DNA of 64,000 nucleotides, taken from the NCBI GenBank assembly GCA_001787755.1, contig MFYJ01000011.1:62001-126000 (forward strand), read 5' to 3'. Every line of letters begins with the position of its first letter. The first letter of the stretch is position 1. The position numbers and the translations under genes are program-made. The stretch comes from Candidatus Peribacteria bacterium RIFOXYB1_FULL_54_35 (lineage in GTDB: Bacteria; Patescibacteriota; Gracilibacteria; Peribacterales; Peribacteraceae). The notes under the pieces are model-generated. The model made no database searches and was not told the DNA's origin. It worked only from the letters and a program-made list of their open reading frames with translations. This document shows, one piece after another, positions 8,636-17,794 of the stretch.

Positions 8636-11600
8636 TTAGCTCTGGTAGCTGGTGGACTTCACAGTCGCCTCTGGGTACTCAACCCACGTGAAGTTCGTTG
8701 TGGTTGTATCCACATCTGACCACTCGACATAGCTCGTAGCGGCAGCTGTGCCCACGTTGAAGCTCGTGCGGGTAATAGAGTTAAACCTCGTCAGAGAGAC
8801 CTGGAGCGTGCTCACGGCACCGACCGTGGAGTTGCTTGGGTCGGTCACGTTGGCCTCAAGAACGAGCGTGATGTCGTCACCCTGGTTGATTTCCGTGTCG
8901 ATGAGGGTGTTCGACTTCAGCTGAGGACAGTACACCGTGAAGGTGCCGGAGGCTGTGCCTGCCATAACGGTCGTGCCGTTGTAGCCGGTACAGGCAACCT
9001 TGTTGGCATCACTGGAGTTGTCCTTGTTGTAGATCTTGAAGGTGCTTGCATCAAGGGAGACATTCGTCGCATTCACATTGAAGACAACGCCCGAGAGCAC
9101 TGCATCATTCAGACCGTTCTTGGAGTTTCCGTGTGCAGCGGCAGCAAACTTAAATGCTCCGATGTCAGATACGTCGGCCGGAACGGCGGAGCCGTTCGCA
9201 TCCTGGCTTGCGTTGGTGATCGAAGTGAGCTTCGCAAGGACAGAGACGTTCTTGTTGCCGGTAATATCGGTGTTCGCAGCTGCAGCGGAGGAAAGGCCAA
9301 TGAAGACCTCGCCAATAGCTGAGGTATCTCCGTCGTTCGCAATGAGGTTGTTGCTGGACTCGTCTCCGCGTGCGCGGATGGCACCGGAACCGGTGGACTC
9401 GTCAGAAACAGCCTGCTTGGCGATGAAGAACCAGACTGTCTGGTTGGATGAACCACCATTCACGTCATTCTTCATCTTCGGGCGGACGAGGACATCCATG
9501 TCATCGCCCTCCGGAACAACGAGCTGGCGGCTCTCCATGTTGGCACAGAACGCCTGGGTCATGTCGATGGTCGAACCGGAAGACACACCCGTGTTCTGCG
9601 TCAGGACATCATCGTTTCCGCATCCACCGACGGTCGCAAGCGCGAACGGAGTGGACTCACCAGCCTTGTAGAGTTCAAGGCGGTCTACGGAGTTGGCGAG
9701 AGAACCGGAAGAGTTGATCTGGATATCCGTCACATCGACTGCCTCATTCTCTGCATGGAACTGCATGCGGAGCACCGGCTCACCGAGAACGCCACCAAGG
9801 AGCTGGCGGTTGGTGAGTGGCGTGGAGTCCTTCGTGACGAAGAGATCTCCCTGGGCTACGAGTGCCCAGAGCTGGGACTCGACAGTCGTGACGGTAATGT
9901 CGCAGGACGTATTCGTACCGTCATGACAGGTGCCTGCGGTGTATGCAGCGCCGGCGATAGAACCTCCGTTCACGAGAATATTCGAGAGGTTGCTGCCGTC
10001 ATCGAGTTCTTCTGCCTCCAGGAAGGTGACAGTGGTACCCGTGGCGAACTGCACCAGCAGGTCATCGTTTGTCAGTGAGGAGGCAATATCGCCATGTACT
10101 TCGAAGATCACTGTCTCTTCAGCCGGGATGACGTAACCGCCGCCTGCGAGATCGGAGAATGGAATCTGGGAAGACTGGGATGCCACACCGTCCTCAAGGA
10201 TGGTATCGACGACACCATCACCGTCGGTGTCTACCCACAGAGCGTAGTTGCTCGCATTCAGCAGAGAACCCGACTGGGCCTCAAGTGTTGCCTTGGTGAA
10301 GAGAATATCCTCGGCCTCACCTGCGCGTGCCTCGAAGCGGAAGAGGTTAACGTTCTTCGCGTTCTCCACAGCAGTGTCACCCGTGCCCAGTGCCTTGACG
10401 GCAATGGTGAGGGTGGCTGCGGAAATCCGGTGGAAGTTACCGGCAATGTTGCCGCGCGGGCGGACATCACCGACCTTGTCACCGGTGGAGAGACCTTCGA
10501 CCTGCATATGGTAGGCAGTGCTTGCAGTAGCAAGCAAGTCGCCGAAGTTGCAGGTTGTCGTGTTGGAAACAAGCGCGCCGCCACTCAGGATGTGCGTCGG
10601 CTCGCCGCAGATGTGGATGCGGAACTTGTCACCACTCTGAGGCTTGTTGCCGGATCCGTTGTCGATGAAGTCGACACGGAACTCCCAGGTTTCGCTGCCC
10701 TTGACGATGAAATCATCAAACCGGTAAATCTGGAACGTACCATAGTTGGTACCAGCTTGCCTCTGGCCACTGTCGGACGTGCCTGTCAGGCGTACGCCGT
10801 CGATCGTGCGGCCGGTGGTCTTGTTGCGGACTTCCACATCCTCGAGCACTTCGTGGATCTGGTCGTAGCTGTTTGTAGTGAGATTGCTCAGGGCATCGCC
10901 CGTGGAGGTCTGCGCCTGGATAGCAATGAAGAGGTCCTTCACGTCGACATCTTCGCCACCCGTCTGGAACTCGATGTTCCCGAGAACGGCGTCGTTGTCA
11001 TCACGTGTGTAGTCCTGCGTTGCAGGACCATCGATACCGAGAGTGAATTCTCCGGCATCGATCGTCACGGTGTCAGGCAGGGTGGCAGTCTCGGTGGGCA
11101 GGGCAATCTGCGAACCGTACAACTGGCCGTTGACGCCGTAACCGTAGAGGGAACCGACAGCAAAGAGGTCGGAGCTCTCCTCAAAGTGCATGATCATGGA
11201 ATCAGCTGCACCGCCGACGATATCGGCAATAATTTCAAGCGTGATCTTGTCACCCTCGAGAATGGTGAACGGAGGATCGAAGACGACCGTCACGAAGTCA
11301 CCAACTGTCTGGGAGACAGTGTTCGTGAGAACAGTGCCGTCTGTGCGGCGCACTGCAATGTTCACGAAATCCCCATCGGAAGCAGAGCTGTTCTGCTCCA
11401 ATGTCATGGAGTAGAACGTCTGGTCCTCCGTGGAGTTCACTGCTACTTCAAACTTACCAATGACCACTCCTACATCACCCACTTCCACCTCATCGGGGGA
11501 AACGGTGCGGTAGGTGAGAGTCACAATACCACTGGTCACAGCAGCGAGACGGAACGTGCTGCCGCGGACAGGGAAGTTCCCACTGACATCCTTCGCATTT

Positions 11601-12952
11601 CCGAAGACATCGGACGGGAGCTCAATAACCATATTGTGCTCTGCGGATGTCGCGGAAGTGGAAGAGAAGTCAGCAACAACATCTACTGTCACTGTCTCAC
11701 AGGGGTCAAGAACAAGCGGAGAGGAGAAGCGCAGATCGGAGGTCTGATCCTCGGAGTCGATGGTGCGCTTGCGGGTCACACGTGCGCCATTGATGGCGGC
11801 GTAGATACCGTCGACATCTGTTACGGCACCGAAACCTTCATGCAAAACAGTCAGGTTCTCGATTTTGACAGAATCATCGCAGGAAGCGGTGAAATCGGCA
11901 GAAAGCATCACCACGCCTACTGCACCCTTCGGCACAGTGTCGCCCACCGGGCTGCTGGCGGAGAGTGATACCTCGAGCTCGCCTTCGCCCTGCTCAAATG
12001 CAGTGTAGCCAAGGAAGCTCATAGCATCATCGAAGACAACGCCATCTGCTGTCATAAGATCGGTCACGGCAATCGTGTACTCATGACCTGGGTCCATCGC
12101 CTCGCCGAGCGTGAGCTCAACGACGGTGGCACCAAGCAGTTCAACAGCACTCACTGGCACCTCTGGAGAGCCTGTCACCGCGTAATTGGCGACTTCCTCA
12201 GCTGAGGCTTCATCGAGTGAAACATTGAACTCGAGTTCAACGGTTGTGGCGGATGTTGCGACGGCATCGGTGAGCATAGGCTCAGCGCTGACGTCTTCAT
12301 CACCACAGTCGACACCGTACTGCATGCCCTGGTCGACGCGGTAAAGCATCACCACCATTTCTGCACGGTTCATGTTGTCGCCTGGGCGAACACGACCGGT
12401 GCGGTCATCACCCTGCAGCACGCAGTGATCTGCGGCTGTCTGGATGACGTCGGTGTACCACTGGCCAGCAGGGTTATCGACGAACTGAGGCGCATCGCCG
12501 GTCGACTCAAGTCCGAAAGAGCGGACAATGAGGGCGGCAGCCTCTGCGCGATTGATGTTCGCGCCTGGACGGGCGTAGCACGGGCTACTGCCGTAGCAGT
12601 TGCCGTCACCACGTACCCATCCTTCTTTACCGGCTTCTTCGAAGTACCCGTAGTACCACGCGCCGGTTGGCACATCGTTAAAGCTCGGGACGGCTGGCGG
12701 GGTGGAGAGAATTCCACCATTCAGCTCGACCACAAGCTTGACGAACTCCGCACGGTTGGCAGGATCGCCACCGCGGAAGCGTGCCTGTGTGGAATCGAGG
12801 TAGCCTGCATCGACAAAAGCGCCGACGGCATCCTCGTACCACACTCCTGCAGGAACGTCGCTGTACGCAGCAAGCACGGTCCCCACTTGGGTGAGGGTGA
12901 GAGCTGCAACGGACATTCCGGCAAGGACTTTCTTCAAACGAGAAAGGTCCAT
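8636..12952 (-). CDS. SLH-domain surface-layer-like protein, secreted
   Basis: The 1438-residue protein starts MDLSRLKKVLAGMSVAALTL, a signal peptide with likely cleavage after VLA. Three S-layer homology domains follow (about residues 28-210). Each has the pattern F-D-V/SDVP...WY...A...G.......F.G...NRAE, for example YSDVPAGVWYEDAVGAF, GANINRAEAAALIVRSFG and GDNMNRAEMVVMLYRVD. The remaining 1200 residues are threonine/serine/valine-rich beta-sandwich-like repeats, beginning with an Ig-like unit (TSATTVELEFNVSLDEAS). SLH domains usually bind pyruvylated cell-wall polymers in monoderm cells, so this is a candidate S-layer or major surface protein. The start at 12952 is chosen because the upstream in-frame extension lacks signal-peptide character. 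A 624-residue antisense reading frame inside it is a coding shadow. Confidence 0.9.
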   Translation of the reverse strand: MDLSRLKKVLAGMSVAALTLTQVGTVLAAYSDVPAGVWYEDAVGAFVDAGYLDSTQARFRGGDPANRAEFVKLVVELNGGILSTPPAVPSFNDVPTGAWYYGYFEEAGKEGWVRGDGNCYGSSPCYARPGANINRAEAAALIVRSFGLESTGDAPQFVDNPAGQWYTDVIQTAADHCVLQGDDRTGRVRPGDNMNRAEMVVMLYRVDQGMQYGVDCGDEDVSAEPMLTDAVATSATTVELEFNVSLDEASAEEVANYAVTGSPEVPVSAVELLGATVVELTLGEAMDPGHEYTIAVTDLMTADGVVFDDAMSFLGYTAFEQGEGELEVSLSASSPVGDTVPKGAVGVVMLSADFTASCDDSVKIENLTVLHEGFGAVTDVDGIYAAINGARVTRKRTIDSEDQTSDLRFSSPLVLDPCETVTVDVVADFSSTSATSAEHNMVIELPSDVFGNAKDVSGNFPVRGSTFRLAAVTSGIVTLTYRTVSPDEVEVGDVGVVIGKFEVAVNSTEDQTFYSMTLEQNSSASDGDFVNIAVRRTDGTVLTNTVSQTVGDFVTVVFDPPFTILEGDKITLEIIADIVGGAADSMIMHFEESSDLFAVGSLYGYGVNGQLYGSQIALPTETATLPDTVTIDAGEFTLGIDGPATQDYTRDDNDAVLGNIEFQTGGEDVDVKDLFIAIQAQTSTGDALSNLTTNSYDQIHEVLEDVEVRNKTTGRTIDGVRLTGTSDSGQRQAGTNYGTFQIYRFDDFIVKGSETWEFRVDFIDNGSGNKPQSGDKFRIHICGEPTHILSGGALVSNTTTCNFGDLLATASTAYHMQVEGLSTGDKVGDVRPRGNIAGNFHRISAATLTIAVKALGTGDTAVENAKNVNLFRFEARAGEAEDILFTKATLEAQSGSLLNASNYALWVDTDGDGVVDTILEDGVASQSSQIPFSDLAGGGYVIPAEETVIFEVHGDIASSLTNDDLLVQFATGTTVTFLEAEELDDGSNLSNILVNGGSIAGAAYTAGTCHDGTNTSCDITVTTVESQLWALVAQGDLFVTKDSTPLTNRQLLGGVLGEPVLRMQFHAENEAVDVTDIQINSSGSLANSVDRLELYKAGESTPFALATVGGCGNDDVLTQNTGVSSGSTIDMTQAFCANMESRQLVVPEGDDMDVLVRPKMKNDVNGGSSNQTVWFFIAKQAVSDESTGSGAIRARGDESSNNLIANDGDTSAIGEVFIGLSSAAAANTDITGNKNVSVLAKLTSITNASQDANGSAVPADVSDIGAFKFAAAAHGNSKNGLNDAVLSGVVFNVNATNVSLDASTFKIYNKDNSSDANKVACTGYNGTTVMAGTASGTFTVYCPQLKSNTLIDTEINQGDDITLVLEANVTDPSNSTVGAVSTLQVSLTRFNSITRTSFNVGTAAATSYVEWSDVDTTTTNFTWVEYPEATVKSTSYQS

Positions 12953-13113
12953 AGGAATGAAGGGATGAAAAGAAATAAAAACAAGGTTAGAAAAAGAATT
13001 CTTTTTGTAGCTTTGTAGAGGAAAGAGCTTCTGCTCTGCCCATCCCGGCACTCTCGCGTGAGAGGCGAGTGTGATTCCACGTGGGAATCCTTCACTCCTC
13101 TCCTTATATATAA
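12953..13113 (-). promoter_or_regulatory. Structured 5' leader of the surface-layer gene
   Basis: Upstream of the ATG lie two stable hairpins: GATTCC/GGAATC around CACGTG (13073-13089), and CACTC..CTCTC/GAGAG..GAGTG (13050-13072). Further upstream is the AT-rich palindrome TTATATATAA (13104-13113), a possible -10 region. The last 50 bases before the ATG are pyrimidine-rich with no Shine-Dalgarno. A long, folded leader suggests an mRNA stabilised for high expression (inference). Confidence 0.45.
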
Positions 13114-13892: not shown

Positions 13893-15437
13893 CTACATCT
13901 TCGTGATCTTCTGCCCCTCCGCGGTGTCCCGTACCTCGTACCCGAGGGCTGCTATCTCGTCTCTCAGGCGATCGGACTCTTTGAAGTCCTTCGCCGTTCT
14001 TGCCGCCGCGCGCTGGTCTACGAACTTCTGGACCTCCGCAGGAATCGCCTCTGCTTCTTCAGAATCGAAGCAGCCGAAGGTATGACGAATCAGTTGAATA
14101 AATTTATCCAGTTCCGTCTCAAAACCTAATACTGGTCTGTGTGCATGGTATGCTTGAGTTCTTAACTCAAAAACAGCGGCCAGTGCGGCTGGTGTGTTGA
14201 GATCATCGTCCATGGCTTCAGTAAATCTCCGGAGATACCTTCTTATATCTTCAACACTAAAATCAGCGTTGGGCGGAATACCACCGGAATGTGCGATGAA
14301 CCCAATGTCCCTGTTTTGCATCCATTTTTGCATCCATTCCACTAATGTTCTGCGTGCATTCTTTGCATCTTCCAATCCTTTCTTTGCGAACTTGAGCTGC
14401 GTGCGGTAGTGCACGGAGAGGAAGTAGTACCTTAGATCGAGCGGCGAGTACCCCATGGCCTGAATGTCCGGAACGCTCAGCACGTTGCCAATACTCTTAG
14501 ACATTTTTTCTTTGCCTAAACCAAGCCAGAGCACCTGCATTTTAGGCATCGCAATTCGCCGCTTATGCACCCAGTACTTCACGAAGGGCGCGGGTCCGCT
14601 GCACTCGCTCTGCGCGATCTCGCACTCATGGTGAGGAAAGATATTATCCTCCCCGCCAGTGTGGATGTCGATCTGGCCCCCTAATAAAGAGGAGCTCATC
14701 GCTGAGCACTCGATGTGCCAGCCGGGGAATCCCGACTCCTCGTCTTCGCCGACGGTGTCGCTTCTTTTTCCCGTCGCAAACGTCCAGCGGAGGACGTGCC
14801 GCGCGTTGTCGCCGACGCACTTCTTCCACAGCGCGAAGTCCGCCGGGTGCTTCTTCTTCTCATCCACCGCGATGCGCGCGCCGGCGGAGAGCTTGTCGAT
14901 GGTATTGCCGGAAAGGGCTCCGTACTGCGGAAAACTCTGCACCGAGAAATAGATGCCATCGTCCGTTTCGTACGCATGCCCGGACTGCAGCATCGTCTTG
15001 ATCATCGCGAGCTGCTCTGCGATGAACTCGCTCGCACGGGGGCGCTTCCACGGATCCAGAATGTTGAGTGCCTTCTCGTCTTCCAGAAATTCGTTCGTGT
15101 GCTTCTCCACCACCGCCATCACGTCCTCCCATGTGACGCGCGCGGCTCCCCCCCCGCCTTTGCTCTTCTCCGCCTCCCGCTGAATCTTGTCATCCCCTTG
15201 ATCCGCGTCATGAAGCAGGTGCCCCACATCCGTGATGTTCTTCACGTGTATGACCTCGTAGCCGGAAACCTCCAGCCACCGGCGCAGGAGATCCGCCATG
15301 AGAAAGGAAGAGTAGTTGCCGATGTGCGGGCGCCCATAGACTGTGGGCCCGCAGGTGTACATGCGCACCTTCCCTTTCTCGAGCGGGACGAATTCTTCCT
15401 CGCCTTTGGAGAATGTGTTGTAGAGCTTGAGAGGCAC
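13893..15437 (-). CDS. cysS: Cysteinyl-tRNA synthetase
   Basis: The 514-residue class I enzyme charges tRNA-Cys. It shows the MYTCGPTVYGRPHIGNY segment (zinc-ligand Cys and the HIGH-like HIGN motif), the zinc-site block GFPGWHIECSAMS, the DIHTGGEDNIFPHHECEIAQSE stretch and the KMSKS loop in EKMSKSIGNV. A DALR-like anticodon helical domain makes up the C-terminal third. The GTG at 15437 (VPLKLYNTFSKGEEEF) is chosen as start: it gives the normal family N-terminus, and a -10 box TATCAT (15449-15444) lies exactly six bases before it, implying a leaderless message. An upstream ATG at 15485 would add 16 hydrophobic residues not expected in CysS. It is a single-gene unit on the minus strand. Confidence 0.96.
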   Translation of the reverse strand: MPLKLYNTFSKGEEEFVPLEKGKVRMYTCGPTVYGRPHIGNYSSFLMADLLRRWLEVSGYEVIHVKNITDVGHLLHDADQGDDKIQREAEKSKGGGGAARVTWEDVMAVVEKHTNEFLEDEKALNILDPWKRPRASEFIAEQLAMIKTMLQSGHAYETDDGIYFSVQSFPQYGALSGNTIDKLSAGARIAVDEKKKHPADFALWKKCVGDNARHVLRWTFATGKRSDTVGEDEESGFPGWHIECSAMSSSLLGGQIDIHTGGEDNIFPHHECEIAQSECSGPAPFVKYWVHKRRIAMPKMQVLWLGLGKEKMSKSIGNVLSVPDIQAMGYSPLDLRYYFLSVHYRTQLKFAKKGLEDAKNARRTLVEWMQKWMQNRDIGFIAHSGGIPPNADFSVEDIRRYLRRFTEAMDDDLNTPAALAAVFELRTQAYHAHRPVLGFETELDKFIQLIRHTFGCFDSEEAEAIPAEVQKFVDQRAAARTAKDFKESDRLRDEIAALGYEVRDTAEGQKITKM

Positions 15438-15443
15438 GTGGAG

Positions 15444-15449
15444 ATGATA
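15444..15449 (-). promoter_or_regulatory. -10 box placing transcription start at the cysS start codon
   Basis: TATCAT on the minus strand is followed by exactly six bases and then GTG. No clear -35. Confidence 0.4.
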
Positions 15450-15534
15450 GCGAAGCGGGAAAAAGAGATACAGGAAAACAGGCACGCCTCACATGTGAGG
15501 CGTGCCGTAAGCCCGACTCCGGATCTCCCCCGTC

Positions 15535-15957
15535 TCAGGCAGCATCGTGCACTTCGGCCCGACTGATCGGTGTCACCGACACCGCCGCCATGGAGCGGCA
15601 GTGGAAGGTGGCAGCAAGTGATCCCCCGAAGTGGATACGCAGGAAGATGTGCTCCCCGATGCGCAGGTAGGGATCTGTCTTGCTCAGCATGCGCTTGCGA
15701 TGCCAGATCCCCATTGCATCGGAAGGCGGCTCAATGTCCTGCCCGGGGACGTCTCCCCCCTCAAGCTCAACATGCTTGAGAGATGCAATCTCGATGCAAA
15801 CACTGCTTGCGCCAGAGGTGAGGAAGCGCACCTCGATATTGCTCCCGAGACGGAACCCGCCGCCGAGCGTAACTACCCTGCGCTGGTTGCGCCACCTTCC
15901 GGTCTTGTCCTGGTGGAACTGCTGTTCCACACCGGACAGTTTCTTCTTGTTCGCCAT
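15535..15957 (-). CDS. Hypothetical protein, two short CsrA-like beta segments
   Basis: I do not recognise this 140-residue protein with certainty. It starts MANKKKLSGVEQQFHQDK and is basic at the N-terminus, then has two similar beta-rich segments: GGGFRLGSNIEVRFLTSG near residue 40 and YLRIGEHIFLRIHFGGS near residue 100. Each resembles the 'R-x-G-x-x-I-x-V/L' strand pair of CsrA-family proteins, and the neighbouring small gene on the same strand resembles CsrA more clearly, but the match is weak. The start at 15957 is supported by a GGAG element (TATGGAGAACACGA before ATG) with ordinary Shine-Dalgarno spacing, unusual in this window. It could equally be an unrelated beta-barrel nucleic-acid-binding protein. 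Confidence 0.55.
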   Translation of the reverse strand: MANKKKLSGVEQQFHQDKTGRWRNQRRVVTLGGGFRLGSNIEVRFLTSGASSVCIEIASLKHVELEGGDVPGQDIEPPSDAMGIWHRKRMLSKTDPYLRIGEHIFLRIHFGGSLAATFHCRSMAAVSVTPISRAEVHDAA

Positions 15958-16195
15958 TCGTGTTCTCCATAACTGTAGGTAACCGCCGACAACCAACTCC
16001 CCAATGGAGTCAGGAATGGAAGCGCAGAAGGTGCGCCTTCAGCCCTGACTCAGGTGATGTGAAAGAGCAAAACAGAGAGAAGCATAGCGTTGCATAGGCA
16101 ATTCTCCGCAGAGAAAAAGTGGGAAAGTCCGTCGTCCTGACGTCCTTTCCCGAATCCGTTCGCGGCATCGCATCCTTTCGACACCGGCATCGTGG

Positions 16196-16390
16196 CTACG
16201 CCGCCCTTGCCAGAGGCAGTGCGGCGGCGTCGATGGCCGCGAGGACTTCGTCGGGTCCGAGAATCTCGAACCTCACCTCGTCGCCTTCGACTGCAGCCAC
16301 GGTGACAGTGATGTCACCCTGAGGGGCCCGAATGGTAATCCCCTCTCCAACGCCGCGGTCCACAGGACCGCGCAACGACGTTCCGTGCAT
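16196..16390 (-). CDS. Small CsrA-like protein
   Basis: The 64-residue product contains [20 protein letters not shown] followed by [18 protein letters not shown]. This lines up with the CsrA/RsmA core (R-x-V-G-E-x-x-x-I-G-D-x-x-x-V-x-V-x-x-V-x-G-x-x-V-R-x-G-x-x-A-P-x-x-V) apart from a four-residue insertion. CsrA dimers bind GGA motifs in mRNA leaders and block translation. The conserved C-terminal Arg of CsrA (in V-H-R-E-E) is not evident, so RNA binding is uncertain. The gene has a textbook Shine-Dalgarno, AAGGAGGT, six bases before the ATG, rare in this window. A GGA-loop hairpin lies just upstream. The similarity is from pattern reading only. Confidence 0.5.
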
Positions 16391-16445
16391 GGTGATACCT
16401 CCTTACATGCACTGGGTGAACGGGCTGGTTGCTCCTTGCAACGGC
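16391..16445 (-). promoter_or_regulatory. Shine-Dalgarno plus GGA-loop hairpin upstream of the CsrA-like gene
   Basis: On the minus strand the hairpin GTTGC-AAGGA-GCAAC (16442-16428) presents GGA in its loop, with further GGGC/GCCC pairing outside it. About 25-30 bases later the Shine-Dalgarno AAGGAGGT (16404-16397) contains a second GGA. Two GGA sites, one looped and one in the ribosome site, are the layout recognised by CsrA/RsmE proteins, which often regulate themselves. Upstream to 16726 nothing else coding is seen apart from the leader of the aldolase gene on the other strand. Confidence 0.5.
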
Positions 16446-16726
16446 CCGTGACGCGGGAGGAGAGACCTCCCCCCATGTCACGGGCCCAAGCAGGAACAGG
16501 GTGCGGGATGAAAACGAACGGAGCGGCAGTATCTTCGTCACACAGAACCATGACACGCGTTTTGAGCTGTAAAACTATCTGTACATCTGTCTTTGGCTTA
16601 CAAATGCCAAGAGATAGGGTGCTCCGAACAGACAAACGCTTGTTCCCTTCTTGTGATCAATGTCCTAGAAAGGGGGAGGAGGGCATGATAGCCTACAGGT
16701 ACCACACAATTTTCCTGCCCCTCACT

Positions 16727-17794
16727 ATGGACTACACAGCAATTCAATCCCTTCTCGGCGAAGAAGCTGAGAGCCTCCTTTCTCATGAGTGCAAAACGAT
16801 CAGCAAAGACCGGCTGCATCTCCCGGGGCCGCACTCAGTGAAGAAGATCTTCGCACAATCGGACCGCTCCGGTGCCGTGCAGAAGAATCTGCAGGCACTC
16901 TACGGGCACGGCAGGCTCGCCGGCACCGGCTACCTCTCCATTCTCCCGGTGGACCAGGGAATAGAACACTCCGGTGGCGCTTCGTTCGCCAAGAACCCCG
17001 ACTTTTTCGACCCGGAGAACATTGTGAAGCTTGCTGTGGAAGGAGGGTGCAATGGCGTAGCCTCAACATTCGGGGTGCTGGGGATGGTCTCCAGAAAGTA
17101 TGCGGACAAGATTCCGTTCATCGTGAAAATGAACCACAACGAACTGCTCAGTTACCCAAACAGCTTTGACCAGATCATGTTCGGCACAGTGCAGCAGGCG
17201 TACGACATGGGGGCCGTGGCCGTAGGCGCAACCATCTACTTCGGCTCACCGGAGAGCGGCAGGCAGATAGTGGAGGTGGCTGCGGCGTTTGCCGAAGCAC
17301 ACCGGCTCGGCATGTTCACCGTGCTGTGGTGTTACCTGAGGAACAGCGCATTCAAAAAGGATAAGGACTACCACGTCTCCGCAGATCTCACGGGGCAGGC
17401 AAACCATCTCGGCGTCACCCTGGAGGCGGACATCATCAAGCAGAAGCTCCCCGAGAATAACGGCGGTTTCAAAGCGATGAACATGGAAGGGAGTTCCTAC
17501 GGGAAAATCGATGACCGCGTGTACACGGAGCTCACGACCGATCATCCGATCGATCTGTGCCGCTACCAGGTGGCCAACTGCTACATGGGCCGCATCGGGC
17601 TCATCAATTCCGGCGGTGCCTCCGGCAAGAACGATCTGCAGCAGGCGGTGAAGACGGCAGTGATCAACAAGCGCGCGGGCGGAGCAGGGCTCATCTCCGG
17701 ACGGAAGGCATTCCAGAAGCCGATGGCACAGGGTGTGGAGATTCTGAACGCCATCCAGGACGTGTATCTGTGTAAAGAGGTGACTGTGGCATAA
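16727..17794 (+). CDS. fbaB: Fructose-bisphosphate aldolase, class I (archaeal/DhnA type)
   Basis: The 355-residue enzyme cleaves fructose 1,6-bisphosphate in glycolysis, or runs the reverse in gluconeogenesis, through a Schiff-base lysine. Features of the FbaB group are the [22 protein letters not shown] segment, [25 protein letters not shown] and the phosphate-binding C-terminal part [18 protein letters not shown] followed by [15 protein letters not shown]. The start at [16 protein letters not shown] fits the family length. A longer reading frame from 16385 covers non-coding leader sequence, and an in-frame ATG at 16685 is possible but less likely. The leader just before the ATG is pyrimidine-rich (TTTTCCTGCCCCTCACT) with no Shine-Dalgarno. 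The gene stands alone and is followed by a structured repeat. Confidence 0.93.

Follow-up and report, generated by a model that had tools for sequence, protein, structure and literature searches.

The window analysed here is a stretch of 64,000 nucleotides from Candidatus Peribacteria bacterium RIFOXYB1_FULL_54_35. Two small genes, referred to below as gene 1 and gene 2, lie on its reverse strand between the divergent aldolase gene fba and the cysteine--tRNA ligase gene cysS. The features of this region, in window coordinates, are the following:

13893..15485 (-): cysS, cysteine--tRNA ligase, the downstream neighbour (TIGR00435, 381.8 bits)
15481..15506 (-): terminator-like hairpin after gene 2 (3 such sites found, against 1.5 expected in shuffles)
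15535..15957 (-): gene 2, a 140-aa probable degenerate tandem-CsrA protein, from the pair alignment to tandem CsrA and the strand pattern of the model
15965..15968 (-): GGAG before gene 2, read from the sequence (GGAGG at the G020 ortholog)
16196..16390 (-): gene 1, a stripped CsrA-type protein of 64 aa with an ATG start, from the ORF, profiles, alignment and the G020 ortholog
16398..16404 (-): Shine-Dalgarno sequence (SD) AAGGAGG of gene 1, which includes a GGA, read from the sequence 7 nt before the ATG (AAAGGAGG at the G020 ortholog)
16428..16442 (-): GGA-loop hairpin GTTGC-AAGGA-GCAAC, extendable to 16420-16449 (GGA-loop hairpin in both orthologs)
16443..16486 (-): large hairpin (-39.4 kcal/mol) located upstream of the GGA-loop one, whose 5' arm it overlaps, in the extended form, with its own 3' arm
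16730..17794 (+): fba, class I fructose-bisphosphate aldolase, the divergent neighbour (NF006707, 654.7 bits)

A scan of positions 15400-16800 for sigma-70 promoters found none. Elsewhere in the window, 8636-13051 (-) encodes a protein of 1471 aa that appears to be a surface protein with S-layer-homology repeats.

Gene 1, divergent to fba and followed by gene 2 and then cysS, occupies the csrA slot of its relatives. PF02599 was matched at E <= 0.001 in 51 of the 74 family genomes and above its cut-off in 48, and fba was found in 55. The slot was surveyed in 60 fetched regions and the window (61 in total), among which fba could be placed in 52; a divergent CsrA-profile gene was present within 2 kb in 25 of these loci, cysS in 35 and both in 23, the window included. 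True CsrA genes in Ca. Peribacteraceae are often divergent to fba, mostly between fba and cysS, and several genomes (e.g. G058, G071 and G061) encode a tandem CsrA with two PF02599 matches in one frame. The fba-linked slot is empty in G019, G013 and G015. A search for canonical CsrA in G000 (the window genome), G019 and G020, which are 97.85%, 89% and 98% complete, respectively, found none even at E <= 10, and canonical CsrA was probably lost in the genus of the window. Records labelled as Verrucomicrobia, Acidobacteria, Chloroflexi and others (L151, L153, L155-L165 and more) also contain aldolases 74-80% identical to the fba product of the window, through either a wide sharing of the enzyme or mislabelled bins.

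CsrA was the best family for gene 1 in both Pfam and NCBIfam. The match to PF02599 scored 24.1 bits (E 3.5e-5), below the curated cut-off of 27 bits, and that to TIGR00202 scored 22.9 bits (E 7.1e-5), far below the cut-off of 70.1; a GreA/GreB match was also returned by Pfam. The profile score of gene 1 was 28.0, compared to a maximum of 19.3 among 150 column shuffles, and its own 1.56-Mb genome gave no further match to PF02599 at E <= 0.001. By protein search it was found in only 2 of the 74 family genomes, and the G020 ortholog gave no match in a CsrA profile search at E <= 1. Identity between gene 1 and this ortholog was 0.54, 0.68 and 0.44 at codon positions 1, 2 and 3, respectively; gene 1 is conserved as a coding sequence and is intact in two genomes. 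CsrA folds as a strand-swapped dimer; the predicted model of the gene 1 monomer has three strands and a helix. CsrA (2bti_A) ranked third in a fold search of this model against the PDB with a non-significant E of 0.61, and this match was set aside as fold support. The relatedness to CsrA proposed in the first-pass annotation was thus borne out by profile and synteny, with scores that fall under the curated cut-offs, and gene 1 probably shares common descent with CsrA, judging from its position and profile match.

The alignment of gene 1 to CsrA runs through the central strands. The MLVLxR first strand of CsrA is replaced in gene 1 and in its G020 ortholog, and R44 has no counterpart in either. 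In 37 aligned single-domain CsrA rows (36 from the family and one E. coli sequence), no row departs from R6, R44 or E46 (37/37) and L4 is a leucine in 36. L4 and R44, described as critical to CsrA RNA binding in PMC7652899, with R44 the most needed residue, are both absent from gene 1, whereas one arginine near R6 may remain at a place where the alignment is uncertain. The pI is 4.45 for gene 1 and 4.05 for the ortholog, compared to 4.9-11.6 for the 37 CsrA rows. The earlier proposal that the gene 1 product represses its own translation by binding to GGA RNA is not supported by these observations: with neither R44 nor the first strand left and with both orthologs acidic, autoregulation by the window protein is doubtful and is not a fair inference. 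Like the CsrA/RsmA/RsmE family (PF02599, TIGR00202), gene 1 has the central strands, the fba-cysS slot common to the true CsrA of relatives and an SD before its start; unlike this family, it lacks the MLVLxR strand and Arg44, is acidic and scores under the curated cut-offs. Its sequence suggests that it is probably a CsrA descendant which no longer works as CsrA.

Gene 2 is 43% identical to its G020 ortholog. When both were used as a pair, 104 columns aligned to tandem CsrA with a score of 28.7, compared to a maximum of 21.5 in 150 shuffles. The evidence is carried by the pair, because the single sequences scored 16.7 (gene 2) and 21.0 (the other of the pair), whereas 100 pieces of window ORFs used as real-protein controls reached up to 19.9. 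An alignment of gene 2 to L149 had a poor second half and was left out of folding. The AlphaFold model, built from two input sequences, had a pLDDT of 67 and a pTM of 0.66, and the other four models scored 36-45. It shows a five-strand pattern twice over, with strands at 25-28, 34-37, 41-48, 52-59 and 65-67, then at 85-92, 97-100, 104-110, 116-122 and 128-131, plus a helix; this spacing is consistent with the strand order of CsrA. In searches of the model against the PDB, no CsrA was present among the 50 matches listed by Foldseek or among the matches listed by VIA-align 2, where the best Z (7.1) belonged to an unrelated beta domain, and the fold searches thus lend no support to gene 2 as CsrA. 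By eye, the second half of gene 2 in the window has an arginine where R44 would fall, which is absent in G020, so that gene 2 may have some RNA-binding activity. Gene 2 resembles the tandem CsrA-domain proteins of G058, G061, G071, G050 and G052-G054 in aligning over both halves, in the two rounds of five strands in its model and in its slot, but differs from them in that most RNA-binding positions are changed and a Pfam search gave no match. It is probably a degenerate tandem-CsrA protein, in line with the earlier suggestion of a second CsrA-like gene next to gene 1 with a GGAG before its start.

Other CsrA-like forms were observed in the family. Proteins of ~113-154 aa that begin like CsrA and continue into an extended, helical-looking tail were recognized by eye (L126, L140, L104, L108 and L124, in G069, G041, G047, G048 and G070, respectively). 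Most of them lie upstream of fba in the csrA slot, that of G041 not being beside a placed fba, and possibly form a CsrA-helix fusion family. In addition, several CsrA paralogs, single and tandem and some with a degenerate half, are clustered within a genome (L138 in G071, L120 in G052 and L111 in G061).

SDs are otherwise rare in the window. Among its ORFs of at least 120 aa, AGGAG, GGAGG or AAGGA was found before the first ATG in 0 of 46 and before any of the first four ATGs in 2 of 46. In the whole genome of the organism, AAGGAGGN{4,9}ATG occurred 45 times, compared to 66 times for the reversed control pattern. Over the 74 family genomes, AAGGAGGN{4,8}ATG occurred 1814 times against 1561 for the reversed-pattern controls, or about 3.4 more per genome, and strong SDs are hardly enriched genome-wide; in the three genomes of the window genus this motif was below control (100 vs 149, hand-summed). 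The CsrA-type genes of the family behave differently, since an SD 4-mer was found before 50, a 5-mer before 47 and a 6-mer before 35 of 53 such genes, the window included. The controls were ORFs with a minimum length of 200 aa at these loci, their starts being set mechanically; before the first ATG of these 187 ORFs the counts were 18, 5 and 3, respectively, a contrast that is flattered by the mechanical starts, and the fairer count over any of the first four ATGs gave 46, 22 and 10. The near-absence of SDs outside gene 1 that had been pointed out from the window alone therefore held at first ATGs both there (0/46) and among the family controls (5/187, against 47/53 CsrA-type genes). Reading by eye of 15 CsrA loci from lineages elsewhere in the phylum showed a GGAG-, GAGG- or AGGA-type site before the start in all 15. 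The fba rows with a clear start showed no SD, tblastn-placed starts being wrong in many other rows.

The 3' end of the 16S rRNA was readable in 28 of 30 family loci (own L228, relatives L229-L257) and was CACTTCCTTA in 12, CATCTCCTTA in 9, GTTTCTGTA in 1 and the canonical CACCTCCTTA in 1. According to these counts, the anti-SD drifted across the family, yet AAGGAGG stayed on csrA. The SD of gene 1, which had been called perfect, is so with respect to CCUCC, but the organism's own 16S rRNA ends in CACTTCCTTA, so that AAGGAGG pairs with one G-U. A scan of the genome for AAGGAGG, proposed earlier as a way to find further such genes, gave 40 matches in 39 stretches outside four window-region matches (one pair overlapping); most were inside longer open frames, and a regulon did not emerge from them. 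Two of the stretches (L261 on C2 and L279 on C10) look like true gene starts after AAGGAGG, as does possibly L288, and the genes of L261 and L279 are candidates for a small SD-bearing set.

The leader of gene 1 combines this SD with the GGA hairpin, both at the positions listed above, as the first-pass annotation had described. Its GGAs are located at about -45 and -12, a spacing of 33 nt. The conservation of GGA in orthologous leaders, whose absence would have counted against the first-pass annotation, was found in the one ortholog available: the G020 leader consists, in order, of a large hairpin, a GGA-loop hairpin, AAAGGAGG and a GTG start. The large hairpin of G020 (-31.8 kcal/mol) shares its outer stem with that of the window, whereas the inner stem is largely different; with only two sequences, covariation is not provable from the leaders. 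As 5-bp hairpins with a GGA in the loop occur at about 0.54 per kb per strand in the window, the GGA hairpin alone is weak evidence. The hairpin is predicted to form with a probability near 1 only in short leaders (<=90 nt for the window, <=80 nt for G020), and in the folds predicted for leaders of at least 130 nt the loop GGA is sequestered by another pairing in both. Whether the loop is open or hidden would depend on where transcription starts. Across the family, 22 of 54 CsrA-type leaders have a GGA in the loop of a predicted hairpin compared to 5.9 expected from shuffles, the related genomes in this set not being independent; at the leader length chosen, those of the window and G020 do not count among the 22. 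Similarly, a GGA over the SD and upstream GGA sites are described in PMC7652899 for the csrA and glgC leaders of E. coli, but the window genome is poor in SDs, its anti-SD has drifted, and no canonical CsrA able to bind the leader in the same cell was found in it.

Several explanations of this locus were considered. According to the first-pass annotation, gene 1 would still function as a CsrA despite its divergence, binding the GGA hairpin and the SD of its leader and thereby repressing its own translation. The coding sequence intact in two genomes, the similar leader layout in G020 and the 33-nt spacing, which is within the 10-63 nt range for bridging between GGA sites given in PMC7652899, are in its favour; however, the protein is acidic and lacks both Arg44 and the first strand, and the GGA is sequestered in long leaders, which makes this explanation very unlikely. 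It is even more improbable that two small genes of unrelated origin ended up in the slot as genes 1 and 2, their resemblance to CsrA being due to chance among short beta-rich proteins. The weak scores, the additional GreA/GreB match, the lack of a significant fold match and the gene 1 ortholog without a CsrA match would fit such a coincidence, but the slot and the SD are the same as in relatives, CsrA is the best family in both Pfam and NCBIfam, and the tandem alignment extends over both halves of gene 2.

The SD and the leader structure may also be unrelated to CsrA binding, if high expression or a structured leader makes strong recruitment of ribosomes necessary for csrA-type genes. In the window the SD persists though canonical CsrA was not found, it is present on csrA in the 15 loci inspected by eye in the rest of the phylum, and csrA is reported among the highly expressed genes of ultra-small prokaryotes in PMC9938205. 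The GGAs in hairpin loops (22/54 vs 5.9) and the fact that AAGGAGG stayed while the 16S anti-SD drifted speak against it, and we regard this explanation as possible but rather unlikely.

The explanation that we favour, with moderate confidence, is that genes 1 and 2 are stripped descendants of a csrA cluster kept in the same slot by many relatives, that canonical CsrA was probably lost, and that the translation signals of the family were retained. Gene 1 would derive from a single CsrA-type domain which kept its central strands, lost the RNA-gripping ends (the first strand and Arg44) together with RNA binding, and turned acidic; gene 2 would be the tandem, single-chain version, likewise largely stripped. 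The two genes retain family signals, namely an SD that most genes of these genomes lack and a GGA hairpin. In the relatives, the motifs suggest that true CsrA might bridge the GGA loop and the SD GGA of its own leader and so block translation, and autoregulation of their canonical CsrA through GGA sites is plausible. Gene 1, if still functional, may act as a protein partner, for example by pairing with gene 2, and its leader would be either a relic or read by gene 2. The first-pass interpretation as a whole is thus partly supported.

In a wider and more tentative reading, which we consider unlikely as a whole, the SD would survive in this SD-poor lineage mainly as a CsrA operator, on few genes with csrA first among them. 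The slot would be a nursery of single, tandem, stripped and helix-fused CsrA folds, some of them RNA-free partners or antagonists, and in the window genus such derivatives would have replaced canonical CsrA altogether.

The literature that we found hardly deals with CsrA in candidate-phylum bacteria. Searches, by which subscription journals were scarcely covered, on CsrA in the candidate phyla radiation, Peregrinibacteria and Patescibacteria, on SDs in the candidate phyla radiation and anti-SDs in Patescibacteria, and on tandem or fused CsrA listed nothing on this locus; PMC7366521 treats CsrA in Pseudomonas. If SDs are rare yet kept on csrA-type genes, the genes within reach of CsrA could be recognized in these bacteria by their sequence and would make up a small regulon that can be listed. 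SD-poor genomes with an SD-bearing csrA would let nature itself show whether an SD can be maintained for a regulator and not for the ribosome. In the slot between fba and cysS, all grades are seen between canonical CsrA and stripped derivatives, and this series may be useful for understanding what role the CsrA fold can play without RNA binding.
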